A stretch of 39,827 nucleotides of DNA from Chthoniobacter flavus (GTDB lineage: Bacteria > Verrucomicrobiota > Verrucomicrobiia > Chthoniobacterales > Chthoniobacteraceae): NCBI GenBank assembly GCA_945861435.1, contig CAMAUX010000053.1, positions 1 through 39,827 of the forward strand, given 5' to 3'. Shown here piece by piece: positions 2,670-38,845 of the stretch. The notes under the pieces are model-generated. The model did no database searches and had not been told where the DNA came from. It was given only the letters and a program-made list of their open reading frames with translations. Positions within the stretch are counted from its first letter, which is position 1; the number at the start of each line of letters is the position of its first letter. The translations under genes were made by a program, and so were the position numbers.

Positions 2670-3920
2670 TCAAGTCGAGGGCACAAGCGGCTTCGCGGCC
2701 GCAACACGCCCCCCGCGGTAGCTCACCAGAAAGAACCCAAGGATGAGCGCAATCACCCCGGCAAGCCCCCCCCAGAAAAGCGGCCATGCACGCTCCCCCG
2801 CCCGCTGCGCCACGGCAAACCAACCGCCCGTCCCGAGGTAACCAAACAGGTTTCCCACCCCGCCCGTCAGCATGCTCACCAGCGCCTGCGCACGCACCCG
2901 CCACGCAGGGGCAACCCGCTGGTCGAGGTAGATCTGCGCCGTGATGAACACGCAGGTGAAACAGGCCCCGTGCAGCAGGATTCCCAGGAGCAGCAACCCC
3001 TCCGTGTTTGCCGCACAGCAAAGGAACCGCAAGAGCCCGAACCCCAACCCCACCGCCACCGTGTACTTGATCCCCAACCTGCCCACGACAGCCGATAGCG
3101 CAAACATCGCGATCACCTCCGTAACCTGTCCCAGTGTCATCCAAGCCGCCGTGTGCACGAACCCCAGCTCGTGCAGCTGCCTCGGCGTGTAGGGGTAAAA
3201 CGCCGCAAGCGGAATCGAGAACAGCACGAGCGTGACGAACATCACCCGGTGGTCGTGATGGCGCAGCAGCGTCAGCGCATCCCACCCGAATCGCTCGGCA
3301 AGCGTCAGACGCACCCCACCGTCATCGCCACCACCGCCCTCCGAGGCCGCACCAGGGGGCGGCGCAGGCAGAAAAAAAGTGAGCACGATCACCAGCACCC
3401 ACAACCCCGCCGACGCATAGCAAAAGGTGGTCGAACGGTCCGCATCGAATCCGCTGATCAGCCAGCACCCCACCATCCAACCCAGCGATCCCAGCGCACG
3501 GATCGGTCCAAACTGCCGCTGCGCATCCCGCAACCGACTGAACACGATGGAACTCGTCAGCCCCCATGTCGGCGCCGCACAGAGGGACTGCAGCTGGATG
3601 GCCCCGAGCACCACCATCCCCGAAGCTCCGCTGCGCAGCGTCAATGCCACCAGCATCAACGCCGCCGCAGTCGCCGCCGCAAGCCAGCGCAACACCCGCA
3701 CGGGCGCAAAATGGCGGTCCGCCATCGCCCCGAAAAGCAGGGGCGACACGAAGGCCGCCGTGGCCGAAGTCACGAATGCATAGGGCTTGAACGCCTCCAG
3801 TTCATGCGCATCGAGCACGCTTCCCAGAGGCACCAGCCACGCCCCCATCGCTGCCGCCTGAAAGAAAAACGGGGACGACAACTCCGCAAATTCCAGCGCC
3901 GCACTTCTACGCTCGTTCAC
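2670..3920 (-). CDS. MFS transporter, nucleoside:H+ symporter-like
   Basis: About 416 aa with some twelve hydrophobic segments and a glycine-rich, acidic cytoplasmic loop in the middle (PPGAASEGGGGDDGG). The first helix (PFFFQAAAMGAWLVPLG) and the LSSIVFSRL-like and GPIRALGSLGWM segments resemble the nucleoside:H+ symporter branch of the major facilitator superfamily that is common in Planctomycetota and Verrucomicrobiota. Substrate is not determined. The frame is open to a TTG at 3977, but that part runs through a tandem repeat, so I use the GTG at 3920, which leaves the first helix intact. It lies downstream of ribD on the same strand with 83 nt between, so cotranscription is possible but no functional link is evident. 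Confidence 0.75.
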   Translation of the reverse strand: MNERRSAALEFAELSSPFFFQAAAMGAWLVPLGSVLDAHELEAFKPYAFVTSATAAFVSPLLFGAMADRHFAPVRVLRWLAAATAAALMLVALTLRSGASGMVVLGAIQLQSLCAAPTWGLTSSIVFSRLRDAQRQFGPIRALGSLGWMVGCWLISGFDADRSTTFCYASAGLWVLVIVLTFFLPAPPPGAASEGGGGDDGGVRLTLAERFGWDALTLLRHHDHRVMFVTLVLFSIPLAAFYPYTPRQLHELGFVHTAAWMTLGQVTEVIAMFALSAVVGRLGIKYTVAVGLGFGLLRFLCCAANTEGLLLLGILLHGACFTCVFITAQIYLDQRVAPAWRVRAQALVSMLTGGVGNLFGYLGTGGWFAVAQRAGERAWPLFWGGLAGVIALILGFFLVSYRGGRVAAAKPLVPST

Positions 3921-4010: not shown

Positions 4011-5029
4011 GGATACTTCAACAACCCGCTGCAGCACAAGTCGTCGCCAATCCGCGTGTACACCGGATCCAGCACCCGCGCCGCCTGCGCGCTTGCCCCC
4101 ACCCCGAGCCCGCCAAACGCAGGCTCCGCCCCGCCGCACAACATCGGCGCAAGATAAAGCCGCACCTCGTCCACCAACCTCGCATCCAGCGCCGCCCCCA
4201 GCACACGCGATCCCCCCTCGATCAGCACGCTCGTCACCCCGCGCTGCCCCAATTCGCCCAACACCGCACCCACCGTCTGCCGCCGGTAAACCAGCGTCCG
4301 CTCCCGGTGCGCATCGGTGAAAAGATGCCCCCCCCGCGGAATCCGCCCCTCCCCGGCGAGCACCACCCGCCACGGCTGCACAGGCCCGCGGATCCCACGG
4401 ATCGTCAGCTTCGGATTATCGTGCCGCAGCGTGTTCGCACCGATCAGTACCGCATCCACACGCGCACGCAATCCCATCGCATCCGCACGCGACTCCGCAC
4501 TCGTGATCCAGCGCCCCTCACCGGGCGGCCGCGTCAGCCGGCCATCCAGCGACATCCCTGCCTTTGCGATCACCCAAGGCCGCCCGTGCACCACCCACTG
4601 GTTGAACCCCGGATTCAGCGCACTGCATTCCCCGGCCAGCACCCCGCTCACCACCTCAACCCCGGCCGCCCGCAACAACTTCAGCCCGCGGCCCGCATGA
4701 GCCGGGTTCGGATCCACGGCACCCACCACCACGCGGCGCAGTCCCGCGGCAAGGATCGCCTCCACACACGGCGGCGTCCGACCATGCGTTGAGCAGGGCT
4801 CGAGGGTCACATACAACGTTGCCCCACGCGCTTTACCCGGCTCCGGCAAAGCACGCAATGCCTCCACCTCCGCGTGCGGAAGCCCTGCCCGCCGATGATA
4901 CCCGGCAGCTAGCACCCGTCCTCCGCGCACCACCAACGCCCCCACCCTCGGATTGGGCGAGGTGGCGTTGAAGGCGCGCCGCGCCTCCTCAAGGGCCAGT
5001 CGCATGAAGCGCTCGTGCTGCATCCCCAT
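4004..5029 (-). CDS. ribD: RibD, bifunctional diaminohydroxyphosphoribosylaminopyrimidine deaminase / uracil reductase
   Basis: A 341-aa cytoplasmic enzyme that performs two consecutive steps of riboflavin synthesis: deamination of the pyrimidine ring, then NADPH reduction of the ribose side chain. The N-terminal half has the zinc deaminase signature, HAEVEAL (His52, Glu54) and PCSTHGRTPPC (Cys79, Cys88), after the SPNPRVGALVV block typical of RibD. The C-terminal half, from KAGMSLDGRLT to VTSVLIEGGSRVLGAALDA, is the reductase domain. Length fits the family (about 360 aa). Start taken at ATG 5029 (MGMQHERF); ATG 5023 is equally possible and the frame is open to 5068. No other rib genes are nearby. 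Divergent from rmuC, with 118 nt between. Confidence 0.93.
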   Translation of the reverse strand: MGMQHERFMRLALEEARRAFNATSPNPRVGALVVRGGRVLAAGYHRRAGLPHAEVEALRALPEPGKARGATLYVTLEPCSTHGRTPPCVEAILAAGLRRVVVGAVDPNPAHAGRGLKLLRAAGVEVVSGVLAGECSALNPGFNQWVVHGRPWVIAKAGMSLDGRLTRPPGEGRWITSAESRADAMGLRARVDAVLIGANTLRHDNPKLTIRGIRGPVQPWRVVLAGEGRIPRGGHLFTDAHRERTLVYRRQTVGAVLGELGQRGVTSVLIEGGSRVLGAALDARLVDEVRLYLAPMLCGGAEPAFGGLGVGASAQAARVLDPVYTRIGDDLCCSGLLKYPA

Positions 5030-5147: not shown

Positions 5148-6554
5148 ATGCCTCACAACGACCCCGTTCTCCTCGGCGTCATCGCCGCCGCAATCCTCAT
5201 CGCTGCTCTCCTCAGCTGGCTGCTCGGACGCCGCAACGCATCGCCCCACGTCGATCCCGGACTCACCGAAGAACTGCGCCGCAGCCTCGCCTCCGCACAG
5301 GACGAAGCACACCTCAAAGACACCGCCCATCAGGAGGAACTGGTCCGCGCCACCACGCTCGAAACCCGCCTCGCGGAAACCCTCCAGCGCCACACCGAGG
5401 CCGAACAGCGCCACGCCGAAAACCTCGCCGCCGCACACGCTGAGATCGACCGCATCCGCGCCGAGTATGAGCGGGAAAGAGCGACACTCGAGCAACGGCA
5501 CAGCCGGGACCTCGAGGAACTCAAGAACGCCTTCGCCAAGATGAGCGGCGACGTCCTGCGCGGAATGACTCCCGACGTCACCAAGGAGGTCGCCACCAAA
5601 GTCGAACCGCTCATCACCCAAATCAACACCACCCTCTTCAACTATCAGCAGGCCCTCCAAAACAACCTCACCGGCCAGACCGACCTCCTCACCCAAGTCC
5701 GCGAACAGATGATCCGCGTGGGCCAGAACACCGCCGATCTCACCACCAGCACCAACGAGTTCACCGCCGTCCTCAAAAGCTCCCAACACCGCGGACGCTG
5801 GGGCGAACAAACCCTGCGGCGCGTCGTCGAAGCCTCCGGCCTCAGCTCCGCCTGTGACTTCATCGAGCAAGACTCCCAAAGCACCTCCCGCCCGGACCTC
5901 GTCGTCCGACTGCCCCACGAACGCTGCATCATCATCGATTCCAAGGTGCCTGAATTCGATGCAGCCCTCGCCAACCATGCCGCCCCCAACCGACAGGACC
6001 TCGTCCGCTCCCACGCAAGAAAACTGCGCGAAACCCTACTCGGTCTCGCCGCCAAAAACTACCCCGCCGACCAGCGCAAAGCCGGCCGTACCCCCTTCGA
6101 ACACGTGATCCTCTTCCTCCCCGCCGAGTCCCTCCTCAGTACCGCGCTGGAGGGCGACCAAGACCTCGTCCTCGATGCCGCCAAACACAACATTCTCCTC
6201 GCCACCCCGGCCACCCTCATCGGCTTCCTCTCCGCCATCAACCTCGCATGGCAGCAGCACCAACAAGTGGAGAATGCCTCCAAAATCGCCGGCGAAGCCC
6301 TCAATCTCTACGAGCGCGTCCAGAAACTCGTCCAGCATCTCAGCAAACTCCGCGCCGGCATGGAATCCACCAGCAGCGCATTCAACGAGGTCCTCGGTTC
6401 CTACGAAAGGCGCGTCCGCCCAACCGGCGAGGCTTTGCGCAAACTCGGCGTCGCCTCCACCCATGAACCACTCGCCACTCTCGATGATCTGCCAACGCAA
6501 CTCCGCATCCCGCGCGGAGAGGAGGGTGCGGAACCCGCCGCCAATCCCTCCTGA
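5148..6554 (+). CDS. rmuC: RmuC-family DNA recombination-limiting protein
   Basis: A 468-aa protein. Residues about 8-24 form one membrane helix (LGVIAAAILIAALLSWLLG), residues 40-140 are a long charged coiled coil rich in Glu, Arg and Ala, and the rest is the conserved RmuC domain: SSQHRGRWGEQTLRRVVEASG, the acidic IIIDSKVPEFDA segment and PFEHVILFLPAESLLSTAL. The IDSKVP block resembles a PD-(D/E)xK nuclease core, which the family is thought to contain. RmuC limits illegitimate recombination and inversion at short repeats in E. coli. ATG 5148 is chosen because the hydrophobic helix follows at once; the open frame upstream to 4953 overlaps ribD. Leader is C-rich without a Shine-Dalgarno motif. 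Confidence 0.92.
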   Translation: MPHNDPVLLGVIAAAILIAALLSWLLGRRNASPHVDPGLTEELRRSLASAQDEAHLKDTAHQEELVRATTLETRLAETLQRHTEAEQRHAENLAAAHAEIDRIRAEYERERATLEQRHSRDLEELKNAFAKMSGDVLRGMTPDVTKEVATKVEPLITQINTTLFNYQQALQNNLTGQTDLLTQVREQMIRVGQNTADLTTSTNEFTAVLKSSQHRGRWGEQTLRRVVEASGLSSACDFIEQDSQSTSRPDLVVRLPHERCIIIDSKVPEFDAALANHAAPNRQDLVRSHARKLRETLLGLAAKNYPADQRKAGRTPFEHVILFLPAESLLSTALEGDQDLVLDAAKHNILLATPATLIGFLSAINLAWQQHQQVENASKIAGEALNLYERVQKLVQHLSKLRAGMESTSSAFNEVLGSYERRVRPTGEALRKLGVASTHEPLATLDDLPTQLRIPRGEEGAEPAANPS

Positions 6555-6644
6555 CACCAGTTCGCCCGCATTCACCGGTCCCTCTTGAAAGGAACGCTGC
6601 GCAAACCAATACTCCCCAACACCTCCTCAGATCACCCCCCTGCC

Positions 6645-8063
6645 ATGCGACACCCCCATCTCCTCCGACTCCTCCGACTCCTCTGCGCCCTTGCTCCGCT
6701 CTTGTCCGCCCCCTCCACCACGACAGCCGCCGAGCAGCGCCCGAACATCCTCTTCCTCTTCGCTGATGACCAACGCGCCGACACCATCGCCGCACTCGGC
6801 AACCCCCATATCCAGACGCCCGCGCTCGACCGCCTCGTCCACCGCGGCCTCTCCTTCACCCGCGCCCACATGCAAGGCGGCCGCAACGGCGCCACCTGCA
6901 TCCCCTCGCGCGCCATGCTGCTTTCCGGCCGCAACCTCTTCCACATCGACGAAAAGTTGATGACCCACGCCACTTGGCCCGAGGCCTTCGGCAAAGCCGG
7001 CTACACCACCTTCGCCAGCGGCAAATGGCACAACGGCGATGCCTCACTCGCCCGCTCCTTCCAACTCGCTCGCTCCATGTTCACCGGCGGCATGACCAAC
7101 CCCATGAAGGCTCCCCTGCGCGACCTCGCCCACGGCAAACTCGGCTCCGCACAGGTCTCCCCAAAACACGCCTGCGAAACCTTCGCCGATGAAACCATCC
7201 GCTTTCTCAAAGAACACTCCGGCGGCCCCTTCTTCGCCTACGTCCCTTTCGACGCCCCACACGACCCCCATGTCGTCCCGAACAGTTTCCCCATCCGCTA
7301 CGACGCAGCCAAAATCCCCCTCCCACCCTGCTTCCTCCGCCAGCATCCCTTCGACAATGGCGAGATGACCATCCGCGATGAGCACCTCCTCCCATGGCCG
7401 CGCTCGGAAGCTGCCGTCGCCGCCCTGCTCGCCGAGTACTACCGCTACATCTCCTACCTCGACGCCCAGATCGGCCGCGTGCTCGACGCCCTCGAGGCAT
7501 CCCCCCACGCCGCCAACACCATCGTCGTCTTCTCCGCCGACAGCGGCGTCGCCCGCGGCTCCCACGGCCTCATCGGCAAACAAAACCTCTACGAATTCGA
7601 CTCCGTACGCGTCCCCCTCCTCATCGCAGGTCCCGGCATCCCCGCCGACAAACGCACAGACGCACTCTGCTACCTTTTCGACGTCCTCCCCACCCTCGGC
7701 AAACGCTGCAACATCCCCGCACCGGGCCCAGGCGCGGGCGATGGCTTCGATTTCACCGCCACCCTCGCCGATCCCGCCGCCCCTGCCCGTCCTCACCTCT
7801 TCTTCGCCTACAAAGATCTCCAGCGCGCGTTCACAGACGGCCACTGGAAGCTCATCCGCTATCCGCACGTCGACCGCACCCAACTCTTCAACCTCGACTC
7901 GGATCCGCACGAAGCCACCGACCTTGCCGCCAAACCCGAGCACGCCGATCGCATCAAGGACCTCCTCGCGCGCCTTGAAAAAGAAATGCGCGCAGCCGAC
8001 GACGCAGCTCCCCTCCGCGTCTCCAACCCAGCCCCCGCCGATTGGCACCCAAAGTCCCGCTAG
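6645..8063 (+). CDS. Secreted type I (formylglycine) sulfatase
   Basis: A 472-aa protein with an N-terminal signal peptide (residues 1-29). It opens with the sulfatase metal-site motif RPNILFLFADDQRAD (Asp41, Asp42) and has the formylglycine motif CIPSRAMLLSGR with Cys85 as the residue to be oxidised. ASGKWHNG supplies the substrate Lys, and GSHGLIGKQNLYEF near the middle is the second conserved block. The second metal motif reads FSADSG, with Ser where Asn or His usually follows Asp. Sulfatases of this type in this phylum usually strip sulfate from algal or animal polysaccharides. Substrate cannot be told from sequence. ATG 6645 is chosen so that the signal peptide is at the start; the frame is open from 6585. 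It lies 90 nt after rmuC and is followed by the hexanucleotide repeat locus. Confidence 0.9.
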   Translation: MRHPHLLRLLRLLCALAPLLSAPSTTTAAEQRPNILFLFADDQRADTIAALGNPHIQTPALDRLVHRGLSFTRAHMQGGRNGATCIPSRAMLLSGRNLFHIDEKLMTHATWPEAFGKAGYTTFASGKWHNGDASLARSFQLARSMFTGGMTNPMKAPLRDLAHGKLGSAQVSPKHACETFADETIRFLKEHSGGPFFAYVPFDAPHDPHVVPNSFPIRYDAAKIPLPPCFLRQHPFDNGEMTIRDEHLLPWPRSEAAVAALLAEYYRYISYLDAQIGRVLDALEASPHAANTIVVFSADSGVARGSHGLIGKQNLYEFDSVRVPLLIAGPGIPADKRTDALCYLFDVLPTLGKRCNIPAPGPGAGDGFDFTATLADPAAPARPHLFFAYKDLQRAFTDGHWKLIRYPHVDRTQLFNLDSDPHEATDLAAKPEHADRIKDLLARLEKEMRAADDAAPLRVSNPAPADWHPKSR

Positions 8064-8087: not shown

Positions 8088-8300
8088 TTACTCTTACTCG
8101 TACTCGTACTTTTACTTTTACTCACACCCACCCACCTGCGCTGCGAGCCAGAATAAGCAGTAAGAATAAGCAGTAAGAGTAAGTGGTAAGCAGCAAGAGT
8201 AAGCGGTAAGAGCAACCGGCAAAAGCAAGAGTAAAAGTAAGAGTAAAAGTAAGAGTAAAAGTAAGAGCAAAAGTAAGAGTAAGAGTAAGCGGTAAGAGTA
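8088..8300. repeat. Hexanucleotide repeat locus 1 (TTACTC array facing GAGTAA array)
   Basis: Positions 8088-8123 are about six copies of TTACTC and its variants (TACTCG, TACTTT). After about 25 nt of ordinary sequence, 8150-8300 is a longer array of the reverse complement (GAGTAA, AAGTAA, GGTAAG, GCAGTAAGAATAA variants). The two arms are complementary over roughly 36 nt with mismatches, best between 8088-8123 and 8229-8264, so the RNA or single strand could fold into a long imperfect hairpin. It begins 24 nt after the sulfatase stop. The same hexamer forms a second locus at 38300-38408. Confidence 0.9.
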
Positions 8301-8331
8301 CGGGCGCGAGCAGAACAAACCGCATGCGCCC

Positions 8332-8371
8332 CACCACCCCCACCACCCCCACCACCCCCACCACCCCCACC
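8332..8371. repeat. 9-bp tandem repeat CACCACCCC, G-quadruplex-capable on the minus strand
   Basis: Four perfect CACCACCCC units at 8332-8367 plus a partial fifth. The minus strand therefore carries several GGGG tracts separated by short loops, a pattern that can form G-quadruplexes. It sits about 80 bp upstream of the small secreted protein gene at 8453. Confidence 0.85.
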
Positions 8372-8452
8372 GCGCCCATCTCGATGGCACGAGCCACCCC
8401 CCGATGGCACCCATTTCACGGCCCTGTATCGATTCCACTGGAGACTATGCCT

Positions 8453-8872
8453 ATGAAAACAAACCTCCTCTCCTGTAGGGCGCTGCTCCTCGCCGGCGCC
8501 ATGTCCTCCGTGTGTCTCAGCCCGCGGTCTGCATCCGCTCACGAAAGTCCCTCATCCCCCGCCCACTCCGGCTCGGCCGACGGATCCCACCGCGAAATGC
8601 GAAAGGAAATGCGACGCGAAATGATGGAACAGGCCGAATCCACCGACCGCGAAATCCAGAAACTCGCGGAGCGCATGAATTCCGCCTCTGGCGAACAGCA
8701 GTTGGACGCCATGCGGGCCGTCATCAACAAACTCCTCGAACAGCGCACCGCGATGCACCAGAAAATGATGCACGGCAAAATGGGCGGCCCACAAAAGCCC
8801 TCTTCTGCGGAAAAGGAGACGGCCCCGGAATCGGAACCCCCGTCGGAGACTTCGGAATCCCGCAAGCCGTAA
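8453..8872 (+). CDS. Small secreted Met/His-containing coiled-coil protein, function unknown
   Basis: A 139-aa protein not recognised as a member of a named family. Residues 1-28 are a signal peptide ending near SASA. The central part is charged and helical with many Met residues (REMRKEMRREMMEQ, AMHQKMMHGKMGG) and reads as a coiled coil; the C-terminus is a disordered Ser/Glu/Pro tail. The composition recalls periplasmic metal-binding or chaperone-like small proteins (the Spy/CpxP type), but the LTxxQ motif of that family is not seen, so this is only a loose resemblance. ATG 8453 is chosen because GGAG at 8440-8443 is 9 nt upstream; ATG 8447 is too close. The upstream continuation of the frame runs through the CACCACCCC repeat and is not coding. 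Confidence 0.65.
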   Translation: MKTNLLSCRALLLAGAMSSVCLSPRSASAHESPSSPAHSGSADGSHREMRKEMRREMMEQAESTDREIQKLAERMNSASGEQQLDAMRAVINKLLEQRTAMHQKMMHGKMGGPQKPSSAEKETAPESEPPSETSESRKP

Positions 8873-19673: not shown

Positions 19674-19764
19674 TCTCCTCCCTCCCGCAATCCACAGCGG
19701 CATGCGCCCATTCAGCACACACGCACGGAGAGAGAACCCCAACAGCCATCAGGCACTCTGAATG

Positions 19765-19823
19765 TCGGCATGCCGGAGGCATGAGAGGACACTCTCAAAC
19801 TCGGCATGCCGGAGGCATGAGAG
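19765..19823. repeat. Two perfect 23-bp direct repeats
   Basis: The 23-bp word beginning TCGGCATGCCGGAGGCATG occurs at 19765-19787 and again at 19801-19823, a period of 36 bp. GCATGCCGGAGGCATG is itself almost a palindrome. The pair leads directly into the REP-like hairpin at 19831, so they probably belong to one intergenic element. Confidence 0.9.
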
Positions 19824-36687: not shown

Positions 36688-37541
36688 GCACGGACCTGCC
36701 CTCCCTCACGGATTTCCTCGCCGAACCCGTCGCCCGCCGCGCCCTGCTCGCCTGCGTTCTCATCGGCTTTGCCAACGGCTTCGTCAGCGCCTTCGTGGTC
36801 CTGCGCAAATCCGCCCTCAAAGTCGGCACCCTCTCGCACGCCCTGCTTCCGGGCATCGCGCTCGCAGTCCTTCTCGTCGGCCTCACCCAATGGAGCGCAC
36901 TGGCGGGCGCACTCTTCGCCGCCATGCTCGTGGGCCTCGGCTCCATCTTCCTCTCGCGTTCCTCCCGCCTCGACCAGGACACCTCGATGGGAATCCTCTA
37001 CACCACAGCATTTGCGGCCGGTTATCTCGTCCTCACCCAGCTCAACATCCGCCAGAAGCTCGATGAATGGCTCTTCGGCAGCATCGTCGGAATGGCCGAC
37101 ACCGACCTCTGGATCGCCTTCGCCATCAGCGCACTCGCCGTCCTCACCCTCACCGCCCTCCAACGCCCGCTGCTCATCTACCTCTTCGAACCCCACATCG
37201 CCGCGAGCCTCGGCGTGCCCGTCCGCTTCCTGAACTACGCCACCTTCGCCATCACCATCCTCGTCCTCATCTCCTCCCTCCAAGCCGTGGGCTGCATCCT
37301 CAGCGTCGGCCTCATGGTCGCGCCTGCAGCCACCGTCTTTCTCCTCACCAACAACGCGCGCGCCCTCTTCTGGGGCGGCGGTATCATCGGCGCACTCGGC
37401 TCCGTGGCCGCCTTCTTCCTCAGTTACCCACTGGGCTGGTCTGTGAGTGCCACCATCATCGTCGTTCTCGGCGCCCTCTTCCTTCTGGCCTTCATCTTCA
37501 GCCCTCGTTACGGCCTCTTCAGCAGCCGCAGACGCTCCTGA
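36684..37541 (+). CDS. znuB: Metal ABC transporter permease, ZnuB/ABC-3 family
   Basis: A 285-aa inner-membrane protein with about eight hydrophobic helices. The ABC-3 blocks are clear: FVVLRKSALKVGTLSHALLPG (the SHALLPG loop contacts the ATPase), DTSMGILYTTAFAAGYL, LFGSIVGM, LQAVGCILSVGLMVAPAAT. It ends in a basic tail (SSRRRS). It forms the channel for the metal delivered by the periplasmic binding protein. Start ATG 36684 overlaps the ATPase stop by 4 nt. Zinc is favoured from the operon context, manganese possible. Last gene of the operon; 47 nt to the glycosylase gene. Confidence 0.9.
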   Translation: MSTDLPSLTDFLAEPVARRALLACVLIGFANGFVSAFVVLRKSALKVGTLSHALLPGIALAVLLVGLTQWSALAGALFAAMLVGLGSIFLSRSSRLDQDTSMGILYTTAFAAGYLVLTQLNIRQKLDEWLFGSIVGMADTDLWIAFAISALAVLTLTALQRPLLIYLFEPHIAASLGVPVRFLNYATFAITILVLISSLQAVGCILSVGLMVAPAATVFLLTNNARALFWGGGIIGALGSVAAFFLSYPLGWSVSATIIVVLGALFLLAFIFSPRYGLFSSRRRS

Positions 37542-37588
37542 TCCGCTGCCGCCCCACATCCCGGCACCATCCTCCACCCAAGGACACC

Positions 37589-38218
37589 GTGACCCGCACC
37601 GCCCTCAAGCTCCTCGCAAAAAACGATCCCTCACTCGGCGCCCTCATCACACGCGTCGGCCGCTGCAAGCTTGCCCCCGAGCCCGAACGCCAGCCCTTCG
37701 AGTCCCTCGTGCGCGCCGTCGCACACCAGCAACTCCACGCGCGTGCCGCCGCCCGCATCCTCGAGCGCTTTCTCGCCCTCTTCACCGGCTCGCGCTTTCC
37801 CACCGCCCGTGCGCTCGGCTCCGTGTCGGATGAACAACTGCGCGCCGCGGGCTTCTCCGCCTCCAAAACCGCCGCACTGCGCGACATCGCCTCCAAATCT
37901 CTCGAGGGCATCATCCCCAGACGCGCCCAACTCGCGAAACTCCAAGACGAAGCCATCATCGAACGTCTTGTCACCGTCCGCGGCGTCGGCCGCTGGACCG
38001 CCGAGATGCTCCTCATCTTCCAACTCGGCAGACCCGACGTCCTGCCCGTCGACGACTTTGGTGTGCGCAACGGCTTCCGCATCGCCTTCGGCCTCCCTGC
38101 CATGCCCAAGCCCGCCGAAGTCCGTGCACGCGGCGAACTCTGGCGCCCCCACCGCACCACCGCTGCCTGGTACCTCTGGCGCGCCGCAGACGCCGCCAGC
38201 GTACCGCAGGAAATCTGA
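37589..38218 (+). CDS. DNA-3-methyladenine glycosylase, AlkA/HhH-GPD family
   Basis: A 209-aa base-excision repair enzyme that removes alkylated purines. ESLVRAVAHQQLHARAAARI is the entry helix of the family, VRGVGRWTAEMLLIF (residues 130-144) is the helix-hairpin-helix, and PVDDFGVRNGF carries the catalytic Asp (Asp155 or Asp156). There is no N-terminal AlkA domain, so it is the short form common outside enterobacteria. Start GTG 37589 with AAGGA just upstream (4-nt spacing, short). A 96-bp fragment of a near-identical gene lies at 39224-39319. No Fe-S Cys cluster is seen, in contrast to Nth/MutY. Confidence 0.87.
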   Translation: MTRTALKLLAKNDPSLGALITRVGRCKLAPEPERQPFESLVRAVAHQQLHARAAARILERFLALFTGSRFPTARALGSVSDEQLRAAGFSASKTAALRDIASKSLEGIIPRRAQLAKLQDEAIIERLVTVRGVGRWTAEMLLIFQLGRPDVLPVDDFGVRNGFRIAFGLPAMPKPAEVRARGELWRPHRTTAAWYLWRAADAASVPQEI

Positions 38219-38299: not shown

Positions 38300-38408
38300 T
38301 ACGAGTAGGAGTAAGAAGCCGGGGAACTGCGCGGCAAAGCTCTTACTCTAACTCTTACTCTTACTCTTACTCTTACTCTTACTCTTACTCTTACTCTTAC
38401 TTCTTACT
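38300..38408. repeat. Hexanucleotide repeat locus 2 (GAGTAA arm facing TCTTAC array)
   Basis: Ten TCTTAC units (one TCTAAC) run from 38341 to 38400, followed by a slipped unit to 38408. A short arm GAGTAAGA at 38309-38316, within TACGAGTAGGAGTAAGAAGC, can pair with TCTTACTC at 38341-38348. Flanks are GC-rich. It lies between the glycosylase gene and the convergent vapC gene and uses the same hexamer as 8088-8300. The region 38219-38479 holds nothing else. Confidence 0.9.
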
Positions 38409-38479
38409 CCCACTTCTACTCCCGCCCCTGCAGGCCAACCCTCTCTGCTCCCACCCATCGTCAGCCTTCGGCGAGGGCT

Positions 38480-38845
38480 TTAATGATCTAAATAAGAAAC
38501 GCCCAATTCTTGGGCGGCATCATCCAGACGGCGATCCCTGGACCACAAACGATTTCCAGAAAGGCGCGCTGCGACCAGTATTTGAATATCTCTCCAGCCG
38601 ATCCCCCGTCCGTAAAGCCGGTGGGTTTCAATAAATTGCATACACTCGTCTGCCGTGCCGACCTGAACCTTTGGCAGAAAACGCAAGGCAGCCAGAGTTT
38701 TGGACCGGTCCAGGAGATTCCCCGTCGCAAGTTCCCCCAGAATCACGGGATGGATTGCAATAAGACCCTTCTGGAGGATTTGTGCAAAACGAGGGAGTCC
38801 GTGGCGGAAGTGGTAAATCCAAACGGAAGTATCTGCGAGAATCAC
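38480..38845 (-). CDS. vapC: VapC toxin, PIN-domain ribonuclease
   Basis: A 121-aa PIN-domain protein. The acidic catalytic set is visible: Asp5 in MILADTSVWIYHF, Glu in VILGELATGNLL, Asp in GWRDIQILVAARL and Asp in WSRDRRLDDAA. VapC toxins cleave tRNA or rRNA and are held inactive by the paired VapB. Its ATG (38843-38845) overlaps the vapB stop by four bases, which is the usual translational coupling. Full length, with all catalytic residues, so probably functional. Confidence 0.93.
   Translation of the reverse strand: MILADTSVWIYHFRHGLPRFAQILQKGLIAIHPVILGELATGNLLDRSKTLAALRFLPKVQVGTADECMQFIETHRLYGRGIGWRDIQILVAARLSGNRLWSRDRRLDDAAQELGVSYLDH

Follow-up and report, generated by a model that had tools for sequence, protein, structure and literature searches.

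Facing NTAMTC hexamer arrays recur between genes in several bacterial phyla and may represent a dispersed inverted-repeat element

The window analyzed in this study (the whole stretch of 39,827 nt) contains two facing hexanucleotide arrays at positions 8088-8300. We tentatively read this region, at close to an even chance, as a worn copy, expanded by slippage, of an inverted-repeat element that is dispersed, extragenic and non-autonomous and looks more like a movable sequence than a transcription stop signal. The regular form of the element is composed of about five NTAMTC units, a core of mostly 5-45 bp and about five GAKTAN units, with outer inverted repeats in some lineages. A dispersed element is supported by its recurrence, preferred arm length, variable sixth base, lineage cores and free orientation, as well as by its scarcity in divergent gaps, one clean presence/absence difference and its occurrence in two viral-collection contigs.

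Sequence reading combined with a repeat search revealed that the pyrimidine arm (8088-8124, minus strand) consists of six NTACTY units (TTACTC, TTACTC, GTACTC, GTACTT, TTACTT and TTACTC). A GC-rich spacer (8125-8149) separates it from the purine arm on the plus strand, which comprises a degenerate inner portion (8150-8221), placed within a mosaic of 13-, 20- and 33-bp repeats, and a clear hexamer portion (8222-8300) of GAGTAA/AAGTAA units, with a clear AGAGTA/AAAGTA array at about 8222-8293. The TTACTC array originally placed at 8088-8123, beginning 24 nt after the sulfatase stop codon (position 8063), was confirmed by the tandem-repeat search of the window (6.0 copies, 86% matches). The predicted right arm (8150-8300) also exists, although in degenerate form: its 24 copies show 72% matches and 7% indels, with clear hexamers only from about 8222.

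The arrays occupy a tandem gap of approximately 380 bp between the sulfatase gene (6585-8063, plus strand) and a gene of the same direction without a Pfam match (8447-8872, plus strand), which probably starts at 8447 (picked by eye from the preceding GGAGA). The sequence AGAGTAAGAGTA, with up to two mismatches, was found 29 times in the window, compared to a mean of 0.37 and a largest value of 3 in shuffled sequences, in agreement with the claim that the arrays are not due to chance. Their proposed ability to form a hairpin was likewise borne out by RNA folding of the array region (-66.5 kcal/mol, z -3.7; none of 200 shuffles equally good). A perfect 9-bp tandem repeat (CCCCACCAC, 4.8 copies) is located directly behind the first array (8329-8371).

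A second array in the window, missed by the original prediction, was detected at 38338-38423 (minus strand); it contains approximately ten TTACTC units and a tail. Pattern matches identified a short GAGTA arm (38302-38313, plus strand) on its outer side, in reverse order. A distance of 83 nt separates the start of the whole cluster (38302-38423) from the preceding HhH-GPD gene (37067-38218). In this region the gene-calling script missed a Pfam-supported PIN-domain gene (38480-38845).

The arrays are widespread in the genome from which the window derives (G000). Exact matches to GAGTAAGAGTAA were found 77 times genome-wide (1 for the reversed control), and a loose 18-mer (up to three mismatches) gave 261 matches (3 for the control); hence, the array is not confined to one place in the assembly. 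From approximately 100 of the 261 loose matches, at least 24 clusters could be derived, and among these matches listed 14 clusters are facing, 7 are one-stranded and 3 are reversed. The contexts of these 24 clusters are tandem (14), convergent (5), divergent (2), contig edge (2) and within a called ORF (1). The facing clusters, together with facing arrays in other genomes (see below), uphold the suggestion that opposed arms exceed what slippage would produce. In several G000 clusters, whole units have been duplicated in tandem, and these local duplications, together with the long arms, indicate that in this genome the regular element has apparently drifted by slippage and duplication.

Among 57 relatives, TAMTCNTAMTCNTAMTC was found in G000 (82 matches), its congener G002 (104), G018 (397), G026 (79) and G035 (13), and four more genomes gave 1-7 matches, with a similar control in three of those. 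The congeners G001 and G003 gave no matches, which indicates a patchy distribution. Of 387 genomes sampled across the phylum, 36 contain the facing TAATC/GATTA pattern (maximum of 152 forward matches), compared to a single control match in one genome. G018, which we take to be Chthoniobacter flavus Ellin428, gave 136 forward facing matches and no reversed ones; match counts include overlapping registers, so the elements are fewer than the matches. The matches listed carry the record titles Chthoniobacter flavus, Chthoniobacteraceae, Opitutaceae, Lentisphaerae, Kiritimatiellae, Planctomycetota, Desulfobacteraceae, Deltaproteobacteria and Ignavibacteria (taxa by record title, mostly MAGs).

Most of the 16 array-rich genomes compared retain the TAATC-core-GATTA order, and 12 of them have no reversed matches. 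In genus g118 the reversed order is commoner (59 and 72 matches, vs. 27 and 16). Many GATTA-core-TAATC arrays with recurring cores were seen in loci L326-L332 of this genus.

Two viral-collection contigs, L405 and L333, also carry facing arrays, in which each arm has three units. In L405, a phage contig, a facing TACTC array (4180-4280) lies between the genes of the terminase large subunit and the portal protein. The neighbors of the L333 array look, by eye and without library confirmation, like terminase and portal genes, and its core resembles the cores of MAG MiH-14oct19-36 and of G151. A third viral-collection contig, L406, matched a shorter pattern only; repeated GGTCACTGGTGACTAG units occur there at approximately 5850-5920, next to a short TAATC/GATTA pair.

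A broader proposal, which we consider rather doubtful, is that facing NTAMTC arrays constitute a class of mobile, multimeric protein-recognition elements of PVC bacteria, of some Desulfobacteraceae and relatives, and of their phages. A putative reader protein would contact five of every six bases in both arms, and phages may carry the element between hosts. If the dispersed-element reading is right, several phyla and also phages have acquired an easily recognized repeat that is not described in the literature searched (largely without subscription papers), in which no description of facing NTAMTC arrays was found. The constant part of the element, inverted arms in which a pentamer recurs at 6-bp steps, would make a sharp prediction about its reader protein. 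Since Ellin428 is a cultured strain, and G018 has 136 facing matches, mapping of transcript ends, pull-down and insertion tests are feasible.

The anatomy of the element was determined from sets of 161 (8 from G000), 183, 213 (2 from G000) and 243 (2 from G000) arrays, found with patterns that require TAMTC units, in loci picked for their arrays and not at random. The unit is N-T-A-A/C-T-C, with N being T (.40), G (.33), C (.14) or A (.14) in 2359 units. Exactly five units are present in 159 of 366 arms of the set of 183 arrays, and core length peaks at 15 (32/183). Cores are shared by the arrays of a lineage: they are 30 nt long in MAG TH-08apr19-195, approximately 15 nt in genus g133 and several MAGs, and 5 nt in Desulfobacteraceae CSMAG_2466; those of C. 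flavus (G018) are diverse. A common core motif across lineages, sought by EM, was weak (4.4 bits, vs. 1.4-2.1 in five shuffles) and good mainly within genera. The flanks of the arrays are also shared within GWF2_57_35, MiH-14oct19-100 and CSMAG_2466. Outer inverted repeats were identified in two MAGs (TH-08apr19-195 and MiH-14oct19-36) and were not seen in C. flavus (G018) or G002. A likeness of these repeats to attC was weighed by eye and dropped.

The genes surrounding the arrays were called with our own codon-model script, so that their starts are approximate. The 213 arrays lie in tandem (114), convergent (31) or divergent (25) gaps, within an ORF (16) or without a call (27), the last two groups making 43 without usable context. 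Tandem-gap arrays follow the stop codon at a median distance of 28.5 nt and precede the next start by a median of 63 nt, and 76 of the 114 are nearer the stop (p=0.001). The expectation of gene-end placement is therefore upheld for most of these arrays, but the placement is not conserved at the sulfatase of congener G003, where no array was seen behind the single related gene examined (read by eye). Divergent gaps are under-represented, both in a strict subset (12/98, vs. 22/92 in the background; p=0.039) and in another array set (22/139 vs. 64/208; p=0.0015). Some divergent arrays have two well-supported neighbors, which indicates that array sites are not strictly limited to gene ends. The 34 arrays of C. 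flavus (G018) are distributed among tandem (21), convergent (6) and divergent (4) gaps, ORFs (2) and an edge (1), and the stop/start difference in its tandem gaps is not significant (p=0.27). The 25 arrays of G002 comprise 13 tandem, 7 convergent and 5 divergent cases (p=0.057). The orientation of the core relative to tandem genes is not fixed (14 same, 16 opposite).

In eight pairs of arrays, the members of each coming from different genomes, at least one of the two flanks is similar. Within these pairs 381 of 395 pentamer bases are identical, a conservation that arises partly by construction, as the detection patterns require TAMTC. The sixth base agrees at 41 of 79 positions (approximately 0.30 expected from composition), and the cores mostly differ. 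The pairs vary in this respect: the sixth base agrees at none of 11 positions in the G191/G326 pair (L304/L325, flanks 83% identical), at 11 of 11 in L192/L340 (flanks 69-71%) and at 9 of 11 in L168/L148.

Both C. flavus (G018) and G191 carry an array between the MoxR and DUF58 genes. No array was found within 320 bases upstream of the gene at any of 30 further DUF58 loci, which were retrieved from 16 genomes and comprise those of G002, G000, G003 and G326 (a congener of G191) and 26 more. Conserved placement between these two distant genomes was therefore dropped, and since the nearer relatives have no array, we read the two cases as independent. Comparison of G191 with G326 revealed a clean presence/absence difference of approximately 96 bp, in which the flanks (85.6% and 84.5% identical) meet with a gap of -3. 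This could equally be a clean insertion or an equally precise loss. The MoxR gene of G191 (L307, 3098-4147) has arrays on both sides (2997-3092 and 4205-4303).

For the dispersed element we tentatively propose the following mechanism. An enzyme supplied in trans would read the repeated TAMTC pentamers and copy the units to new intergenic sites. Copies would survive mainly behind stop codons, presumably because they do least harm there. In the window's genome, slippage and the duplication of entire units in tandem would then have lengthened the TACTC arms.

Several results weigh against mobility. There is only one clean empty site, and no target duplication was detected across 239 arrays in comparison with permuted partners, except at 4 nt (29 vs. 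20.7); one possible case of a 3-bp duplication was found. Divergent gaps hold 22 and 25 arrays in two sets (by our own gene calls), and sixth bases were also kept in two of the eight pairs. Few array flanks are shared in C. flavus (G018) and G002, so that copying is not visible in these genomes. A comparison of flanking genes between the G002 and C. flavus (G018) loci gave two shared pairs. The search for a mobilizing enzyme was negative: 39 of 40 genomes encode Y1 transposases, whether or not arrays are present, and none of 10 Y1 loci (6 in G000, 3 in G018 and 1 in G002) holds a two-unit array.

A rival explanation places selection at the level of double-stranded DNA. According to this explanation, which we judge rather unlikely, the arrays are binding sites kept by selection for a chromosomal host protein (nucleoid, segregation or regulatory) that reads TAMTC every 6 bp on both sides of the core. 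The retention of pentamers while sixth bases and most cores change in the eight pairs points this way, as do the preference for five units and the arm order of genus g118, which is reversed and still inverted. Two variant units also show no strand asymmetry (7 in 5′ arms, 9 in 3′ arms); the same counts were considered as a wobble sign of selection on RNA, a comparison of low power, and this idea was dropped. A conserved host site is harder to reconcile with the absence of arrays from G001 and G003, with presence and absence at the same MoxR-DUF58 gene pair and with copy-like families that have common flanks in several lineages. The seven one-strand clusters among the matches listed for the window's genome also argue against it, and no candidate protein emerged.

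The original prediction proposed that the hairpin could serve as a terminator or an mRNA stabilizer, i.e. as a 3′-UTR structure that ends transcription or blocks exonucleases. We consider this unlikely, despite the fold of the window array, the location of arrays close behind stop codons and the facing arrangement of the arms, which most of the genomes tested preserve (136 to 0 in G018). The complementarity of the sixth bases was 0.422 in register, 0.421 and 0.424 one unit off, and 0.397 and 0.433 two units off; with partners permuted over all loci (a smaller set) it was 0.305. Taken together, these values indicate that N is biased per locus or genome and is not paired by register. The loop ends showed no covariation (1.40 outer core pairs, vs. 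1.52 permuted, in 154 cores of at least 12 nt). Real arrays exceeded N-shuffled ones in stability by a small margin (-0.74 ± 0.33 kcal/mol; 68/120), and this small gain and the fold z-score of the window array lean toward an RNA hairpin, opposite to the other pairing tests.

Intrinsic terminators resemble the arrays in being inverted repeats near gene ends, but they have a GC-rich stem and a T-run, and the arrays have neither. T-runs follow only 13 of 486 array ends and none at the window array, near which a single terminator-like site was predicted (1.1 expected), outside the array itself. Rfam 15, at the gathering score, gave no matches in the window or in 20 array loci. Moreover, 12 of 98 arrays lie in divergent gaps, 7 of at least 24 clusters (among the matches listed) are one-stranded, and arrays also occur between same-direction, probably co-transcribed genes, such as MoxR/DUF58 and the phage terminase/portal genes. 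On the pairing, loop, T-run and stability tests, a terminator or stabilizer hairpin was rejected as the main reading, and facing arrays of this kind call for caution against terminator annotation.

Least probable, and disfavored, is an origin as neutral microsatellites, in which slippage and hairpin-templated copying create facing arms without function or mobility: the long uniform arms and local duplications of G000 fit it, but templated copying or correction of one arm by the other predicts an in-register match that is absent, and the same hexamer across phyla, the five-unit mode and lineage-wide cores are unexpected from slippage.

Returning to a dispersed element, we compared the arrays with known repeat families. 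MITE-like and ERIC-like elements are short, non-coding and intergenic, have inverted ends and occur in either orientation. The arrays are likewise short, non-coding, intergenic and present in either orientation, with outer inverted repeats in two lineages; they differ in their constant inner hexamer arrays and in that no target duplication was seen. REP/BIME sequences associated with RAYT transposases are described as dispersed, extragenic, palindrome-like, divided into many families and present in some species, including the verrucomicrobial Opitutus terrae (PMC3733652). The arrays share the dispersed, extragenic and palindrome-like character, the many families and the patchy occurrence across species. 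However, according to the same text REP stems are 5-13 bp long (PMC3733652), whereas the array arms are hexamer arrays of typically 30 bp, and the array hexamer, unlike REP, is the same across phyla. REP tags were not enriched: of 474 ends, 18 have GTAG/CTAC at a distance of up to 15 nt (40.3 expected) and 30 have CGTC/GACG (37.8 expected). REP/RAYT identity was rejected on this tag test and on the absence of arrays at the 10 Y1 loci examined.

TAACTGA repeats of Beggiatoaceae, Cyanobacteria and Bacteroidetes are similar to the arrays in being intergenic, composed of short units and scattered over phyla; the Maribeggiatoa draft has 169 direct sets and one indirect set, most of them immediately upstream of start codons (PMC4679880). 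They are almost always direct heptamers, whereas the arrays are built of inverted NTAMTC units with a 6-bp period and a variable base, rather than of the direct heptamer, and more often lie behind stop codons. We file the array as a kind of extragenic inverted repeat, for which the REP tests run were negative and the MITE tests mixed.

A second dispersed palindromic repeat (ctcgcgccccatgccggggcgc ... gcatgcctccggcatgc) was observed between array copies of the window's genome, in L045 (4530-4650 and 4845-4940) and L053 (4600-4720 and 5100-5220). The window contains a sequence resembling this palindrome at 19754-19823, where a 36-bp unit with GGCATGCCGGAGGCATG is present in 1.9 copies.
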